Assembly (NCBI RefSeq): GCF_030692605.1
Contig: NZ_JAUYUD010000084.1
Location: forward strand, 1 to 53,453
Source: Lutibacter sp.
Lineage (GTDB): Bacteria; Bacteroidota; Bacteroidia; Flavobacteriales; Flavobacteriaceae
Direction: 5' to 3'
Length of the DNA: 53,453 nt
Shown: piece by piece, positions 29,552 through 35,742 of the stretch
Layout of the letters: every line of letters starts with the position of its first letter
Position numbering within the stretch: the first letter of the stretch is position 1
Position numbers and translations under genes: made by a program
Notes under the pieces: model-generated
Told to the model about the DNA's origin: nothing
Seen by the model: the letters and a program-made list of their open reading frames with translations, nothing else
Database searches by the model: none

Positions 29552-30847
29552 TTAAGAAGTAAGTAAATGTTGCTTTAATTGGTTGTAATTGTCAATTTTA
29601 AAAGCAATTTTCTCTTTATCAATTACTTCCTTAATTTGTTTTGGCAATTCAATTTTTATATTTAATACGGGTTCTATTACATCCAAAAATTTAACAGGAT
29701 GAGCCGTTTCTAAGAAAATGCCACATGTATTTTGACTAATTTCATATTTTTTTAAACCCAAATAGCCAACAGCTCCATGAGGGTCAGCAATATAGTTAGA
29801 GGTTTTCATAATTTCTTTCATTGCCTCAATGGTTTCATCATCTGTAAATGAATAGGAGGAAAGTTGTTTTCTTAATTCCACAATATTGTTATTAAATAAT
29901 TCTAAAATACGCACAAAATTACTTGGATCACCAACATCCATAGCATTTGAAATAGTTTGTTTTGAAGGTTTAGCAATGTAATTACCTGTTTCTAAATAAT
30001 TTGGAAAAACATCATTTACATTGGTTGAAGCTATAAATTGTTTAACCGGTAAACCTAATTTTTGAGCCATTAATCCAGCGCAAATATTCCCAAAATTTCC
30101 ACTTGGAACAGAAAATACTATATTTAAATTATTATTTTTAAGCTGTTTATATGCGAAAAAGAAATAAAACATTTGTGGCAACCAGCGAGCAACATTTATT
30201 GAATTTGCCGAAGTTAAATTCAAAACTTTTGTAAGCTCATCATCTAAAAAAGCCGTTTTTACCATTGCCTGGCAATCGTCGAACGTACCGTTAACTTCTA
30301 AAGCTGTTATATTTTTCCCTAATGTGGTTAATTGTTTTTCTTGAACATCACTTACTTTACCACTTGGATATAAAATTACAACATCTACACCTTCAACATT
30401 TAAAAACCCGCTAGCCACAGCGCCACCTGTGTCACCCGAAGTAGCAACTAAAACAGTTACCTTTTGTGTATCATCTTGCTTATTAAAATAACCTAAACAA
30501 CGCGCCATAAATCGTGCGCCAACATCTTTAAAAGCCATTGTAGGACCGTGGAAAAGTTCTAAAGTGAATATATTTTCATCAATATGGACTAATGGGAAAT
30601 CAAAATTAATAGTTTCTTCAATTATCTTTTTTAAATCTTTTTCAGGTATTTCACCTTTTATAAACTGTTTTATTACTTCGTAAGCAATTTCCTCATTGGT
30701 AAAATAACCAATGTTCTTAAAAAAACCAATAGGCAATTTCTTAATTTTTGATGGAAAATAAAGGCCTTTATCAGGAGCCAAACCTTTTACAACGGCTTGT
30801 TTAAAGGATACTTTAGGTACTATTTTGTTAGTGCTGTAATATTTCAT
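29552..30847 (-). CDS. thrC: Threonine synthase
   Basis: A 431-residue PLP enzyme converting O-phosphohomoserine to threonine. The PLP lysine is in ELFHGPTMAFKDVGARF (Lys107). Other blocks are VATSGDTGGAVASGF, SANSINVARWLPQM and VPSGNFGNICAGLMA. The length and the N-terminal MKYYSTN are of the bacterial type. It is the third gene of thrA-thrB-thrC, 2 bases after thrB. Cytosolic. Confidence 0.97.
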   Translation of the reverse strand: MKYYSTNKIVPKVSFKQAVVKGLAPDKGLYFPSKIKKLPIGFFKNIGYFTNEEIAYEVIKQFIKGEIPEKDLKKIIEETINFDFPLVHIDENIFTLELFHGPTMAFKDVGARFMARCLGYFNKQDDTQKVTVLVATSGDTGGAVASGFLNVEGVDVVILYPSGKVSDVQEKQLTTLGKNITALEVNGTFDDCQAMVKTAFLDDELTKVLNLTSANSINVARWLPQMFYFFFAYKQLKNNNLNIVFSVPSGNFGNICAGLMAQKLGLPVKQFIASTNVNDVFPNYLETGNYIAKPSKQTISNAMDVGDPSNFVRILELFNNNIVELRKQLSSYSFTDDETIEAMKEIMKTSNYIADPHGAVGYLGLKKYEISQNTCGIFLETAHPVKFLDVIEPVLNIKIELPKQIKEVIDKEKIAFKIDNYNQLKQHLLTS

Positions 30848-30849
30848 AA

Positions 30850-31773
30850 CTATTTAATTATTTTTATTCCTTCTGAATTAATTTTTGAACTGTAAACATC
30901 AAAAGGAATTCCTGTTTTTTTGTAATTTTCTTTTAACGCTAACGCAACGGTTTTTGCGACATTTTCTCCTTTGCAAAGTGCAAAAATAGAAGGTCCCGAT
31001 CCCGAAATTCCACAACCTAAAGCACCTGCATTTAATGCTGATTCTTTAACTTTATAATAATTTGGAATTAGCGTTGCTCTTATTGGTTCAACAATAAAAT
31101 CTTCTAACGACCTGCCTATTAACTCATAATCTTCAGTATACAATCCGCTTATTAATCCACCTACGTTTCCCCATTGTTTTACAGCATCTTTTAATAAAAC
31201 TGTCGGACTCAATATGGCCCTAGCATCTACCGTTTTTATTTCGATATGCGGATGAATAACTGTTACAAATAATTCTTTAGGAGTATTAATTTGTATAATA
31301 TCTAAAGGATTATAACTTCTTACGAGCGTAAAACCACCAAAAAGGGCAGGAGCAACGTTATCTGCATGCAGCGTACCACTTGCTAATTTTTCACCTTCCA
31401 TAGCAAATTTGACTAATTGAGTTTTGTTAAAAGGTTTTCCTAGTAACTCATTAATTCCCCAAACTGCTCCAGCTGCACTTGCAGCACTACTACCAATTCC
31501 ACTACCTGGCTTAATGTTTTTATAGATTTCTATTTCAAAACCAAATGAAGTTTCCATCTCGTTTAAAAGAGCTAATGCAGCAACACCAGCAACATTTTTT
31601 GTAGTTTCTAAGGGTAATTTTTGACCTACAATTTTTGTTATTCGAACTCCTGGCTCATTAATTTTTTTAATGATCATTTCATCGCCAATATTGTCTAATG
31701 CCAATCCTAATACGTCAAAACCACATGAAATATTGGCAATAGTAGCAGGTGAAAATATTTTTATTGAGTTCAT
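30850..31773 (-). CDS. thrB: Homoserine kinase
   Basis: A 307-residue GHMP kinase that phosphorylates homoserine. The ATP-binding motif is PGSGIGSSAASAAG (89-102). The N-terminal FSPATIANISCGFDVLG motif and the C-terminal GCGISGSGPSIFAL motif complete the fold. Length is standard. It lies 2 bases from both thrA and thrC, so the three genes are one translational unit on the minus strand. Confidence 0.97.
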   Translation of the reverse strand: MNSIKIFSPATIANISCGFDVLGLALDNIGDEMIIKKINEPGVRITKIVGQKLPLETTKNVAGVAALALLNEMETSFGFEIEIYKNIKPGSGIGSSAASAAGAVWGINELLGKPFNKTQLVKFAMEGEKLASGTLHADNVAPALFGGFTLVRSYNPLDIIQINTPKELFVTVIHPHIEIKTVDARAILSPTVLLKDAVKQWGNVGGLISGLYTEDYELIGRSLEDFIVEPIRATLIPNYYKVKESALNAGALGCGISGSGPSIFALCKGENVAKTVALALKENYKKTGIPFDVYSSKINSEGIKIIK

Positions 31774-31775
31774 AA

Positions 31776-34220
31776 TTAATTATTTCCAATTCTTATAATA
31801 TCTGCAAATAATCCTGATGCTGTAACATCTGCTCCAGCACCTGCACCTTTAATAATTAAAGGTTGCTCATTATAGCGATTAGTGAAAAATAATACAATAT
31901 TATCTTTTCCCTGTAGGTTATAAAACGGATGATCTGGCGAAACTTCTTGTAAACCTACTTTTGCTTTTCCATTTTCATATTGAGCTACGTATTTTAACTG
32001 ACAATTATTTTTAATAGCTTTTGCATAAATAGCATTAAAATGTTTTGCCTCCAATTTAAGCGTTTCCAAAAAAGATGTAGGTGAATTTGCATTTTTACTA
32101 GATTCTGGTAAAAATGATTCATTTACAATACTTTCCAATTCAATTTTTTCTCCACTTTCTCTAGCTAAAATTAATATTTTTCGCATTACATCCAATCCAC
32201 TTAGATCTATTCTTGGATCTGGTTCTGTATATCCTTCAATTCCCGCTTGGTTTACAACGTCATAAAAAGAGGTATCCGCATTAAAGTTATTAAAAATAAA
32301 GTTTAAACTCCCCGATAAAACTGCTTGTATTTTAGTAACCTTATCGCCCGAAGCAATTAAATTTTTTAAGGTATCGATAATAGGTAGTCCTGCACCCACA
32401 TTGGTTTCAAATAAAAATGGGGCATTGTATTCTCTTGCTAATTTTTTTAATTTACTATAATGGCCATAATTAGAAGAACATGCAATTTTGTTACAAGTAA
32501 CCACAGCAATGCTTTCTTTTAAATAATCGCCATATAAATTTGCAACAGCCTCATTTGCAGTATTATCTACAAAAACACTATTTATAAAATTAAGTGATGT
32601 TACTTTATTATGAAATAAATTAAAATCTAGATTTTCACCTTTTAACAAAGATTTTTTCCAACTTCTTAAATCAATTCCATCTTCATTAAAAATCATTTTT
32701 TTTGAATTGGTTAAAGCAATCACTTTTACTTGTAAATTAAAATTAGTCAATAAATAATCTTGTTGCTTAAATATTTGTTCAATTAATTTATTACCCACGT
32801 TACCAACACCAACAATAAATAAATTTAGTTGTTTTGTCTGATTTTCAAAAAATGCGGCGTGTAAACTATTTAGTGCTTTTTTAACATCTTTAGCAGCAAT
32901 TACTGCTGAAATATTCCGCTCCGATGCACCCTGAGCAATGGCTCTAATGTTTACATTGTTTCGCCCTAAAGTACTAAACATTTTACCGCTTATGCCTTGA
33001 TGACTTTTCATTTGATCGCCAATTAAGGCAATTATGGCGTTGTTTTTCTCAACTAAAAGCGGCTCAACTCTTTTTTTCTCTATTTCGTAACTAAACTCCG
33101 CATCCACTGCAATTTTTGCCTTTTCACTATCTTCATTGGTAACTGCCATGCATATAGAATGTTCGGATGAAGCTTGGGTAATAAGCGCTATATTTATATT
33201 TTGAACAGATAACGCCTCAAATAATCGTTTTGAAATTCCTGGAATACCAATCATTCCACTTCCTTCTAAGGTAATAAGTGCACTATTTTCTATATGACTT
33301 ATTCCAATGATAGAATTTGACGATGCTACATTTTTATCAATGGTTGTTCCACTGTGGGTAGGATTGAAAGTATTCTTAATTTTAATTGGAATATTTTTAT
33401 TGAAAACAGGCTGAATAGTAGGTGGATACAAAACTTTGGCGCCAAAATGAGATAGTTCCATGGCTTCTTGATACGAAATATTTTGTATAGGAAACGCCTG
33501 TTTAACAAGTTGTGGATTTGCGGTATACATTCCGTTTACATCGGTCCAAATTTCCAAAACAGATGCATTTAATGCCGCAGCCATAATCGCCGCAGAATAA
33601 TCTGAGCCTCCACGACCTAAGGTTGTAATTTCACCTTCATCACTTTTAGAAACAAAACCGGGTAATAGTACAATTTGATTCTTGTTTTCTTTAAAAAAAG
33701 ATTGAATAGAAGTATTTGTCTTTTTGAAATTAACCGTAGCTTTTGAATAATTATTATTAGTACTAATTAAATCTCTCGCATCTTTATAAACAGCATCTAA
33801 ATTGCTAGAAATAAATGCTTCTGAAATAATATAAGCAGCTAAAAGTTCTCCGAAACTCACAATTTTAGCTGTGGTTTTTGCAGATAATTCGTTGACCAAA
33901 TAAATTCCTTCTAATATTTTATCAAGTTCTTTTAAGCTGATACTGATTTCAATTAAAATTTCAACACCTCTTTTACTTGAAAACAATTCTTCAACAATTT
34001 GAACATGCCTTTTCTTAATTAATTTGAACACATTTTTATATTCTAAATCTGATTTTGAAGCAAGTTGTGCTGCATTTAGAAGCAAATCGGTAATACCACC
34101 AAAAGCAGAAACAATAATAACTACTTTATTTTTTGATGAATTTTCTTTAACAATTAATTGTACTTGCTTAATATTTTGAGCGGTGGCCACTGAAGAACCT
34201 CCAAATTTTAAAACTTTCAT
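31776..34220 (-). CDS. thrA: Bifunctional aspartokinase/homoserine dehydrogenase
   Basis: An 814-residue fused enzyme. Residues 1-300 are aspartokinase (VLKFGGSSVATAQNI, FGELLAA, TLGRGGSDYSAAIMA). Two ACT-type regulatory repeats occupy about 315-460 (LEGSGMIGIPGISKRLF, LIGDQMKSHQGISGKMFS). The homoserine dehydrogenase part is at about 470-814 (VGVGNVGNKLIEQIF; GGxxDE-type segment near ETNVGAGLPIID; AGADVTASGLFADIIRI). It makes aspartyl phosphate and homoserine, entry to threonine and methionine. It is the first gene after the Thr-rich leader, so attenuation and allosteric feedback by threonine are both plausible. Confidence 0.97.
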   Translation of the reverse strand: MKVLKFGGSSVATAQNIKQVQLIVKENSSKNKVVIIVSAFGGITDLLLNAAQLASKSDLEYKNVFKLIKKRHVQIVEELFSSKRGVEILIEISISLKELDKILEGIYLVNELSAKTTAKIVSFGELLAAYIISEAFISSNLDAVYKDARDLISTNNNYSKATVNFKKTNTSIQSFFKENKNQIVLLPGFVSKSDEGEITTLGRGGSDYSAAIMAAALNASVLEIWTDVNGMYTANPQLVKQAFPIQNISYQEAMELSHFGAKVLYPPTIQPVFNKNIPIKIKNTFNPTHSGTTIDKNVASSNSIIGISHIENSALITLEGSGMIGIPGISKRLFEALSVQNINIALITQASSEHSICMAVTNEDSEKAKIAVDAEFSYEIEKKRVEPLLVEKNNAIIALIGDQMKSHQGISGKMFSTLGRNNVNIRAIAQGASERNISAVIAAKDVKKALNSLHAAFFENQTKQLNLFIVGVGNVGNKLIEQIFKQQDYLLTNFNLQVKVIALTNSKKMIFNEDGIDLRSWKKSLLKGENLDFNLFHNKVTSLNFINSVFVDNTANEAVANLYGDYLKESIAVVTCNKIACSSNYGHYSKLKKLAREYNAPFLFETNVGAGLPIIDTLKNLIASGDKVTKIQAVLSGSLNFIFNNFNADTSFYDVVNQAGIEGYTEPDPRIDLSGLDVMRKILILARESGEKIELESIVNESFLPESSKNANSPTSFLETLKLEAKHFNAIYAKAIKNNCQLKYVAQYENGKAKVGLQEVSPDHPFYNLQGKDNIVLFFTNRYNEQPLIIKGAGAGADVTASGLFADIIRIGNN

Positions 34221-34530
34221 AATATTTACTTAGTAAAATGATTAAATAATAATGAACTGACTCGTAGTTCTCTAATTAAAGAATACGATATAACGAACGG
34301 ATAATATAATAGCTAAAACCCCTAAAGGGTAATTGTAGAAGTTGTAAATGTAGTTGTGCCAAAAATCATACTCACATCATAATGAGATGATGTATTAATA
34401 AATCTAATATGATTTTTACCTTTTTGCATTGGACAAATTAACTATAAAAAAATAAGATTAAAAAATTAAAAATCATTAATTTGGTATTTTATCTAAATTA
34501 TTAAATATATAACATTAAAAAATTAAAAAT
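34221..34530. other. lysA-thrA intergenic region with leader, repeats
   Basis: A 310-base region without a long gene. It holds the threonine-rich leader peptide (34322-34369), short inverted repeats around it (for example CATCAT/ATGATG upstream), and an 18-bp direct repeat ATTAAAAAATTAAAAATC at 34457-34474 and 34514-34531, just past the lysA stop. A minus-strand TTAATTTG, one mismatch from TAnnTTTG, lies upstream of the leader. No strong rho-independent terminator could be identified by eye. Confidence 0.6.
34322..34369 (-). CDS. Threonine-operon leader peptide (Thr/Ile-rich)
   Basis: A 15-codon ORF, MIFGTTTFTTSTITL, stopping at TAG. Seven of 15 codons are threonine and two are isoleucine, the same composition logic as the enterobacterial thr leader. 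It ends 101 bases before the thrA start. Ribosome stalling at the Thr codons in threonine or isoleucine shortage could couple to transcription or access of thrA. A classical terminator hairpin is not evident; only a 4-bp ACCC-loop-GGGT at the stop and a weak GAACT/AGTTC were seen. The codon clustering is the evidence; the mechanism is inference. Confidence 0.65.
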   Translation of the reverse strand: MIFGTTTFTTSTITL

Positions 34531-35742
34531 CTAATCATTAAAATCAATTAAGATTTGATTTTTTATTAAATCCTCAAAATTTTCTTGAGTTCTAACTAAA
34601 TAATCGCCGCCATTATACACTAATACTTCTGCTGGTCTAAATCTTGAATTATAATTAGATGCCATTGAAAAACAATAAGCTCCAGCATTTTTAAAACGTA
34701 GAACATCGCCTTCTCTAATTTCACTTATTCTTCGGTTTGATGCAAAAGTATCTGTTTCACAGATATAACCAACCACGGAGTAATAGCGTTCTCTTCCTTC
34801 AGCGTTACTTATATTATCAATCTGATGATACGAATCGTAAAACATTGGTCTAATTAAATGATTAAACCCACTGTCAATACTTGCGAAAACCGTTGATGTT
34901 GTTTGTTTTACTACATTAACATGAGCTAAAAACTGACCCGATTCACTTACTAAAAACTTGCCTGGTTCAAACATTAATGTTAGCTCTTTGCCATATTCTT
35001 TACAAAATTCATTGAATCTTTCCGACAATTTTTCCCCTAATTCTTCAATGTTTGTGGAAATATCTCCTTCAGTATATGGAACTTTAAATCCGCTTCCAAA
35101 ATCAATGAAATCTAAGTTTTCAAATTCCTTAGCAGCATTAAATAAAATTTCGGTTGCCGCTAAAAACACATCAATATCTAAAATATCAGAACCAGTGTGC
35201 ATATGAACACCATTAATTCTCATCCCAGTATTTTGAACAATTCGTTTAATTAAAGGAACCTGATAAATTGAAATTCCGAATTTAGAATCGATATGCCCTA
35301 CAGAAATTTTTCTATTTCCACCAGCCATTATGTGCGGATTTATTCTAACACACACAGGAACAGATGGGTATAGATGCCCAAATTGCTCCAAAATAGATAT
35401 ATTGTCAATATTAATTTGAACACCTAATTTCGAAACTTCTTCAATTTCTTTTAATGATACTCCATTTGGAGTAAAAATAATGGATGAAGGATCAAATCCG
35501 GCTTTTAAACCGAGTAGAACTTCTTGAATAGAAACTGTATCGATTCCAGATTTTAATTTTTTGAAAAATTTCAAAATACTTAAATTAGAATTTGCCTTTA
35601 CAGCATAATTAATTTTTAAACTTTTAACAGTGGCAAAAGAATTTATAATTCTGTTGTATTGAGAGCTAATTTTTTCAGTATCATAAACATATAAAGGACT
35701 TCCGTATTTTTCGGTTAGTGAAACTAATAATTGATTATCCAT
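34531..35742 (-). CDS. lysA: Diaminopimelate decarboxylase
   Basis: A 403-residue fold-type III PLP enzyme that makes lysine from meso-diaminopimelate. The PLP lysine is in INYAVKANSN (Lys49). HMHTGSD, the glycine-rich FIDFGSGFKVPY and the FEPGKFLV motif are conserved. Near the C-terminus, VVGYICETDTFA supplies the partner-subunit cysteine. Length fits. It has its own promoter with a palindrome between -33 and -7. It is upstream of the thr operon on the same strand, separated by the leader region. Confidence 0.96.
   Translation of the reverse strand: MDNQLLVSLTEKYGSPLYVYDTEKISSQYNRIINSFATVKSLKINYAVKANSNLSILKFFKKLKSGIDTVSIQEVLLGLKAGFDPSSIIFTPNGVSLKEIEEVSKLGVQINIDNISILEQFGHLYPSVPVCVRINPHIMAGGNRKISVGHIDSKFGISIYQVPLIKRIVQNTGMRINGVHMHTGSDILDIDVFLAATEILFNAAKEFENLDFIDFGSGFKVPYTEGDISTNIEELGEKLSERFNEFCKEYGKELTLMFEPGKFLVSESGQFLAHVNVVKQTTSTVFASIDSGFNHLIRPMFYDSYHQIDNISNAEGRERYYSVVGYICETDTFASNRRISEIREGDVLRFKNAGAYCFSMASNYNSRFRPAEVLVYNGGDYLVRTQENFEDLIKNQILIDFND

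Follow-up and report, generated by a model that had tools for sequence, protein, structure and literature searches.

What the 310-nt intergenic region in front of the threonine biosynthetic genes of a Lutibacter genome does, and how it might sense threonine, is the question raised by this locus. The region lies in a stretch of 53,453 nucleotides that was analysed in full and is referred to below as the window. On the minus strand, it separates lysA (34531-35742) from thrA-thrB-thrC (34220 down to 29552) and contains a threonine-rich leader [Table 1]. All four genes are named by NCBIfam equivalogs above cut-off, and the closest named relatives of thrA, with 71% identity, are found in Lutibacter (Flavobacteriaceae). 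The genome harbors at least two further aspartate kinase genes (G000:C2:26313-28715 and G000:C62:12073-13410), one of which matches the whole fused aspartate kinase/homoserine dehydrogenase and is 37% identical to it.

Table 1. Features of the thr locus, in coordinates of the window.
Feature	Coordinates	Strand	Remarks
Predicted -7 promoter box TTAATTTG	34434..34441	minus	One mismatch to consensus TAnnTTTG; last G 4 nt ahead of the leader start codon
Leader ORF MQKGKNHIRFINTSSHYDVSMIFGTTTFTTSTITL	34322..34429	minus	35 codons plus stop; predicted +1 is its A; start and length class common to relatives
H0/H1 hairpin	34361..34417	minus	First half of leader; candidate RNA polymerase pause hairpin
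H0 arms (10 bp)	34417-34408 and 34370-34361	minus	
H1 arms (7 bp)	34393-34387 and 34380-34374	minus	
15-codon ORF MIFGTTTFTTSTITL, then stop	34322..34369	minus	3' part of leader; ATG within the 3' arm of H0
Thr codon tract ACA ACT ACA TTT ACA ACT TCT ACA ATT ACC	34328..34357	minus	7 Thr, 1 Ile; Thr enrichment 0-7 codons before H2 in 79 loci
H2, ACCC-UUUA-GGGGU	34318..34330	minus	5' arm is the last Thr codon; loop/3' arm contains the stop codon
U-rich, G-poor tail and conserved motif ATATTATCCG	34298..34317	minus	Motif at 34307-34298; family form CATAT..CC
H3	34262..34288	minus	AT-rich hairpin downstream, without U-tract
thrA, bifunctional aspartate kinase/homoserine dehydrogenase I	31776..34220	minus	NF006959 above cut-off
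thrB, homoserine kinase	30850..31773	minus	NF002288 and TIGR00191 above cut-off
thrC, threonine synthase	29552..30847	minus	TIGR00260 above cut-off

A preliminary description of the region had drawn attention to a 15-codon ORF with seven Thr and two Ile codons, located 101 nt upstream of thrA. Its composition and the distance from its stop codon to thrA (101 nt) proved correct, but the true frame is longer and comprises 35 codons. The 15-codon version was ruled out as the real leader because the start in relatives lies further upstream and keeps a constant distance from the promoter: it is the corresponding codon (M/V-Q...), 4 nt past the -7 box. When the 310-nt intergenic region was shuffled 5000 times with dinucleotides preserved, seven Thr in 13 codons never arose (maximum 5), and on both strands of the window the leader frame is the sole ATG-started ORF of fewer than 80 codons with at least six Thr in 13 codons.

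The start of the message can be predicted from the promoter. Among 33 loci of the Lutibacter group, the end of the -7 box and the start codon (ATG, sometimes GTG) are exactly 4 nt apart in 32, three of these boxes ending in TTTA rather than TTTG; the 33rd, L095, was scored with an ATG further upstream as its start, and its M-Q start also lies 4 nt past a TTTG. According to the available text of a study of Flavobacterium psychrophilum, the box TAnnTTTG occupies positions -12 to -5 relative to the transcription start site in that species, and leaderless mRNAs make up 5.5% of the set (PMC9723704). Together with the 4-nt spacing, the published position of the box places +1 at the start codon, and the thr leader message of the Lutibacter group is therefore predicted to be leaderless, beginning with the leader start codon or no more than a few nt away from it. 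The spacing as scored is longer in Winogradskyella (7 nt in 13 of 15 loci) and in Flavobacterium (6-15 nt in 15 of 16, one not scored), so that a 5' UTR of a few nt is predicted there.

The preliminary description had staked its proposal on the presence of the leader in close relatives. We compared 110 thrA upstream regions (80 named-record loci, 29 from same-genus genomes, and the window), 95 of which are distinct and come from Flavobacteriaceae and near relatives; L083, a copy of the window, was left out of the collection, and the record of L082 is titled Rhodobacteraceae, its thrA being 59% identical to that of the window. An ACCC(C)..GGG(G) hairpin (H2) located 50-280 nt before thrA was found in 79 of the 95 distinct regions, all 79 of them with a Thr/Ile-rich leader in the same place. 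The absence from close relatives that had been named as a refutation is not what is seen. In each of the 79, the frame reading ACC as a codon is, of the three frames running through H2, the richest in Thr and Ile; given that ACCC..GGG was the search pattern, the evidence lies in the frame and the Thr content alone. Thr occupies codons 2-5 before H2 in 42-54 of the 79 loci and codons 1, 6 and 7 in 30-37, and thrA starts 57-204 nt past the leader stop. A conserved stretch of sensing codons at a set position next to an RNA hairpin, a general trait of leader-peptide attenuators, is thereby present in 79 of the 95 regions, and the Thr frame and H2 keep the same register in every one of them. Within the Thr tract, synonymous differences are not the prevailing kind (984 synonymous versus 1693 nonsynonymous in pairwise codon comparisons), in part because Thr is exchanged with Ile and the tract varies in length.

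The 16 distinct regions devoid of H2 were read by eye. L020 has a Thr/Ile leader followed by an ordinary terminator. In seven (L019, L022-L024, L028, L029 and L031), thrA directly follows a gene that we take, from its end, to be a threonine dehydratase gene, and has no leader of its own, an arrangement suggesting that thrA may be under ilv control in these loci; in the other eight, neither a leader nor an operon fusion was seen. Four more same-genus loci that stand outside these counts (L226-L229, L226 repeating L016) all have H2.

The element extends beyond the family. A thrA match at E up to 1e-100 was obtained in 25 of 119 genomes drawn from the class, and the upstream regions of 21 of the 22 non-family genomes with thrA (all except G130) were taken in. 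Six of these 21 regions are of the H2 type, two have an inverted H2, four have a classical leader and terminator (L218 being counted as classical by eye, as the automatic rule picked another stem there), eight have no visible leader and in one the start was not located. The H2 type was also found in three of five further loci within the order and in both further genomes of the family (L224 and L225). In some distant leaders, the five codons next to H2 include no more than two or three for Thr (L211, and L222 with its frame set by eye). In L209 and L214, thr leaders of another order, the G-C pairs of H2 are inverted (ACGGG..CCCGT) and the hairpin lies in the same place after the Thr codons; its exchanged arms sit on the stop codon (ACGGGGTAACCCGT and ACGGGGTGACCCGT). 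Threonine attenuation by a stalled ribosome, as first proposed for this locus, is well supported by this conservation (79 of 95 regions, nine loci in other families or orders, and the two inverted-hairpin loci), and it is very probable, judging from sequence comparison, that thrABC is under Thr-responsive regulation.

H2 is a small hairpin. Of 90 local folds, 89 give it 4-8 bp; its median free energy is -6.6 kcal/mol (79 loci), and its stem is kept while the sequence changes: loops vary and outer pairs are A-U or U-A. Just outside the core, a standard pair is present in 43 of 79 loci versus 33.5 expected from independent columns, a modest excess. The stop codon falls 2 to 8 codons past the start of H2, and programmed frameshifting at CUU UAG was considered and dropped for this reason. 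A pairing of GGGGU from H2 with a downstream A(U/C)CC was likewise set aside, being inconsistent by eye (AGCC and AACC variants). The RNA that follows is rich in U, with 55% T in +1..+10 versus 32% beyond +40, except in L052/L053 where it is A-rich. We note that a stretch similar to ACATAT(C/A)A, which resembles the CATAT..CC motif after H2, is also found inside many leaders near nt +17 to +24, in differing reading frames (34417-34405 in the window, leader codons 5-8).

A covariance model of H2 and its motif (R1) found the thrA site at E <=2e-4, once per genome, in 23 of 25 same-genus genomes; since several thrA loci had trained the model and the best 150 first-look candidates per genome were scored, with places compared by eye, the informative part of this result is that no second strong site appeared among the scored candidates. 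The combination is not a general element: other R1 matches in 40 genomes have E values of 0.009 or worse, and five weak ones that were fetched (L161-L165) resemble chance by eye, L162-L164 being a single coding-region stretch shared by three related genomes. Among the genomes of the class draw, R1 was strong in three only, all within the family, and a weak match in G114 (E 0.07) precedes its thrA. A pattern search of the window's own genome for H2 together with a motif in which one position had to be A or C gave no match, because the window has T there.

Two other parts of the region are structured. Alignments were made for 33 Lutibacter-group, 16 Flavobacterium and 15 Winogradskyella loci, with 13 others as well as L054 and L066 left out. 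When arms were swapped between the 33 Lutibacter-group loci, permutations as good as the cognate pairing occurred 0 times in 2000 for H1, 0 in 2000 for H3 and 13 in 2000 for H0, versus 1935 in 2000 for a control pair, all of these tests being inflated by relatedness among loci. Against shuffles, the H1 region had a mean z-score of -1.1 in 78 loci, and the H3 region one of -1.4 in 79. The window's leader region as a whole does not fold into an unusually stable structure (z -0.85; equal or better folds in 44 of 200 shuffles). By analogy, H0/H1 may be a pause hairpin letting the first ribosome catch up with RNA polymerase.

The preliminary description had further stated that no classical terminator hairpin is obvious. 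This holds for the long kind, as no intrinsic terminator with a long GC stem and a U-tract was found before thrA in the window, and neither the terminator search of the window nor a rule-based scan revealed a canonical long terminator at H2 or H3; it does not hold for hairpins in general, as the short H2 sits on the stop codon and the 5' half of the leader also folds. Under a lenient terminator rule, a stem passes in 14 of the 79 loci, the best being H2 itself, and none passes in the other 65, with the proviso that the rule needs three G-C pairs and that AT-rich stems such as the Winogradskyella H3 therefore cannot pass. Two of the 11 distant H2-type regions pass, namely L168, by a stem located before the leader, and L220, which has a weak terminator-like stem after the leader besides H2.

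The his and ilv operons of the same bacteria present a different picture. Of 23 his loci found, 17 were scored, the other six being cut off or without the His-codon pattern; in 17 of 17, the leader (M..HHHHFHTGTQAS and similar) ends before a long terminator with a U-run, which in the window's genome measures 12 bp. Among ilvD regions (25 found, 18 scored, shorter ones dropped), 13 of 18 have a terminator, and the window's genome carries both his and ilv leaders with ordinary terminators. Set against 14 of 79 thr loci in which H2 itself is the passing stem, these counts indicate, as far as sequence can tell, that the same bacteria use ordinary attenuators for his and ilv yet not for thr. The suggestion that the mechanism could differ from the classical one was sound: the thr element is devoid of the terminator seen in all 17 his loci scored, and has instead a short hairpin that takes in the last Thr codon.

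Some of these his and ilv loci have further features. L144 and L146 have two successive Ile/Val/Leu-rich leaders upstream of ilvD, each with a terminator; L147 has two terminators, and L143 an upstream leader and a second leader ahead of ilvD, giving these four loci apparent tandem attenuators. Just before hisG (L113-L135), many loci have a GATTTACTCAAAC-like stretch that is the reverse complement of the 5' arm and loop of the his terminator and that seems, by eye, to co-vary with the terminator arm (e.g. L114); it may form a further switch pairing.

How, then, could a leader without an ordinary terminator control thrABC? In the mechanism that we favor, RNA polymerase would pause at H0/H1 until the first ribosome catches up. 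This ribosome would then meet Thr/Ile codons running straight into H2, the 5' arm of which is the last Thr codon. With charged tRNA-Thr scarce, it would stall on the last few Thr codons and cover the 5' arm, H2 would be kept from forming, and thrABC would be transcribed; with threonine plentiful, it would leave at the stop codon in or after H2, H2 would form and, together with the U-rich, G-poor tail and the AUAU..CC motif, would stop transcription by weak, probably factor-assisted termination. No antiterminator would be needed, because the ribosome itself occludes H2. The sequence itself displays the leader and its Thr tract, the constant register between frame and H2, the H2 stem, the motif, their conservation and the lack of an ordinary long-stem terminator; we infer the transcription start, the stalling and the OFF step, and consider it probable, if far from assured, that the element is a Thr-responsive leader-peptide attenuator of thrABC in which the H2-occluding ribosome is the ON state and H2 the OFF state. 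Whether H2 is the very site of transcription termination is a closer call, on which we lean slightly to the negative. The complete version would be a two-state attenuator without antiterminator, in which a leaderless leader bears on its final sensing codon a short hairpin that the stalled ribosome occludes, and this hairpin and an AUAU..CC signal end transcription by a non-canonical, factor-assisted termination; it is proposed tentatively, as the less probable side of the matter.

Several observations bear on this proposal. The tail after H2 is not a clean U-tract and is A-rich in L052/L053, making intrinsic termination doubtful there; weak factor-assisted termination fits the U-rich tail found in most loci, but not the A-rich one. 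NusA and NusG are described, in the available text of a study of Bacillus subtilis, as intrinsic termination factors (PMC8060035). Against the occlusion model counts that a ribosome halted at the earliest Thr codons, 5-8 codons ahead of H2, would fall short of the hairpin. The model, moreover, assigns no part to the conserved H3 and leaves the AUAU..CC motif unexplained. Also on the negative side are the shortness of H2, its modest outer-pair excess, the lack of a synonymous majority in the Thr tract, the ordinary stability of the window's leader fold, the second stem in L220 and the eight regions with neither leader nor operon fusion.

The RNA after H2 also brings Rho to mind. Were the OFF step Rho-dependent, the ribosome would leave at the stop codon, the G-poor, pyrimidine-rich RNA beyond H2 would load Rho, and a stalled ribosome, or its effect on H2, would prevent this. 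The missing ordinary terminator is in line with such a scheme, as is a depletion in G (14 of 869 nucleotides in +7..+17 versus 435 of 5416 beyond +30). The C content after H2 is modest, however (11% in +1..+10), a ribosome stalled upstream would leave the same RNA bare, so that the direction of control is not obvious, and the fixed H2 would be left unexplained; we regard Rho-dependent control as unlikely.

The leader might alternatively act on the translation of thrA or on mRNA decay, as for the leaderless poly-Cys ORFs of mycobacteria, with which, from the available text on these, it would share its predicted leaderless start (PMC9031893). The absence of an ordinary terminator and the presence of a conserved H3 between leader and thrA would suit this reading too. 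The start region of thrA (-20..+20), about half of which is unpaired in the four groups, nevertheless shows little pairing with the leader (mean fraction 0.00-0.11 for each of its zones), and it lies 57-204 nt past the leader stop. Re-initiation across such distances is unlikely. Control of translation or of mRNA stability accordingly seems to us an improbable account of the element.

A classical attenuator, with an antiterminator and with H3 or a pairing that escaped us as its terminator, appears quite improbable. The structure of H3 is conserved within the Lutibacter group, and classical thr leaders exist in other orders; in Winogradskyella, H3 reads TGTCT..AGACA and is followed by TTTTATTC, and the 5' end of the RNA pairs weakly, at a mean probability of 0.17-0.23, with the RNA beyond H3. 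On the other hand, no U-tract follows H3 in the Lutibacter and Flavobacterium groups, and the terminator rule, which AT-rich stems cannot pass, returned either no stem (65 of 79 loci) or H2 as the best one (the other 14). In the averaged pair probabilities of the three groups, neither a pairing between H3 and the leader nor an antiterminator, apart from the weak long-range Winogradskyella pairings, was prominent; weak or transient pairings would escape such an analysis. That the leader encodes a functional small peptide, or that the Thr-rich ORF is incidental, is highly implausible, as the open frame and nothing more speaks for it, the peptide differs across groups outside the Thr/Ile tract while Thr content and H2 register are kept, and shuffles fail to yield such an ORF.

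Beyond this locus, threonine leaders are widespread in Flavobacteriaceae and also present in other Bacteroidota, and within one genome the his and ilv operons have attenuators of the ordinary design, the thr operon one of a stripped-down design. Should H2 and its motif stop transcription, they would offer a compact natural handle on pausing and termination by the Bacteroidota RNA polymerase, and on the coupling of leaderless-mRNA translation to transcription, both of which are, to our knowledge, little studied. If the two-state reading is true, a separate class of attenuators would exist over several orders, alongside the classical his/ilv type in the same cells.

The thr attenuator of E. coli and other Gammaproteobacteria (Rfam Thr_leader) consists of a Thr/Ile-rich leader peptide, an antiterminator and a long GC terminator with a U-tract. 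The present leader resembles it in being a Thr/Ile-rich peptide, the presumed sensor of charged tRNA-Thr, encoded directly upstream of thrABC; it differs in that neither a long GC terminator with a U-tract nor an antiterminator was found, its hairpin is fused to the last Thr codon and its start is predicted to be leaderless. Two tRNAs were the only Rfam matches at gathering level in the whole window, no Rfam leader family matched 34215..34480 at E up to 10, and eight related loci, including his, ilv and classical thr leaders, gave no gathering match. The classical thr leaders of other Bacteroidota orders (L216, L217 and L219) are also Thr/Ile-rich and located upstream of thrA, but have GC terminators with T-runs that the window's type lacks. 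With the his and ilv attenuators of the same Flavobacteriaceae, the thr leader shares a richness in the end-product residue, the genome and the regulatory logic; the his leader differs in its long terminator with a U-run and, by eye, in a longer box-to-start distance, neither of which is a feature of thr.

Leaders of this kind, presented in the preliminary description as classically gammaproteobacterial, are less foreign to flavobacteria than this wording implied: besides the his and ilv leaders with terminators in the same genome, strong clues for leader-peptide attenuation at amino-acid operons were reported for F. psychrophilum in 2021, with a 5' element noted at hisG, in the available text of that paper (PMC9723704). 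The word threonine occurs 0 times in its main text, which does not name thr (PMC9723704). In Bacteroides thetaiotaomicron, short ORFs in long 5' UTRs have been described, in the available text, as reminiscent of leader peptides (PMC7366714). Attenuation in flavobacteria is in this sense already published; a thr leader in Bacteroidota, or a thr architecture with H2, was not found in the literature searched, in which subscription journals are thinly covered. As far as known, the nearest analogue of the thr leader is provided by the mycobacterial leaderless poly-Cys attenuators (Canestrari 2020), in which, according to the available text of the sources, attenuation operates via ribosome speed (PMC9031893, PMC13236596). 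Both are short ORFs with a run of the sensed codon, and the leaderless start and the control over biosynthetic genes described for the poly-Cys ORFs are predicted for thr (PMC9031893, PMC13236596). As far as that text goes, the thr leader differs from them in residue, phylum and genes, in the conserved hairpin on its last sensing codon, and in the 57-204 nt that separate it from the gene.
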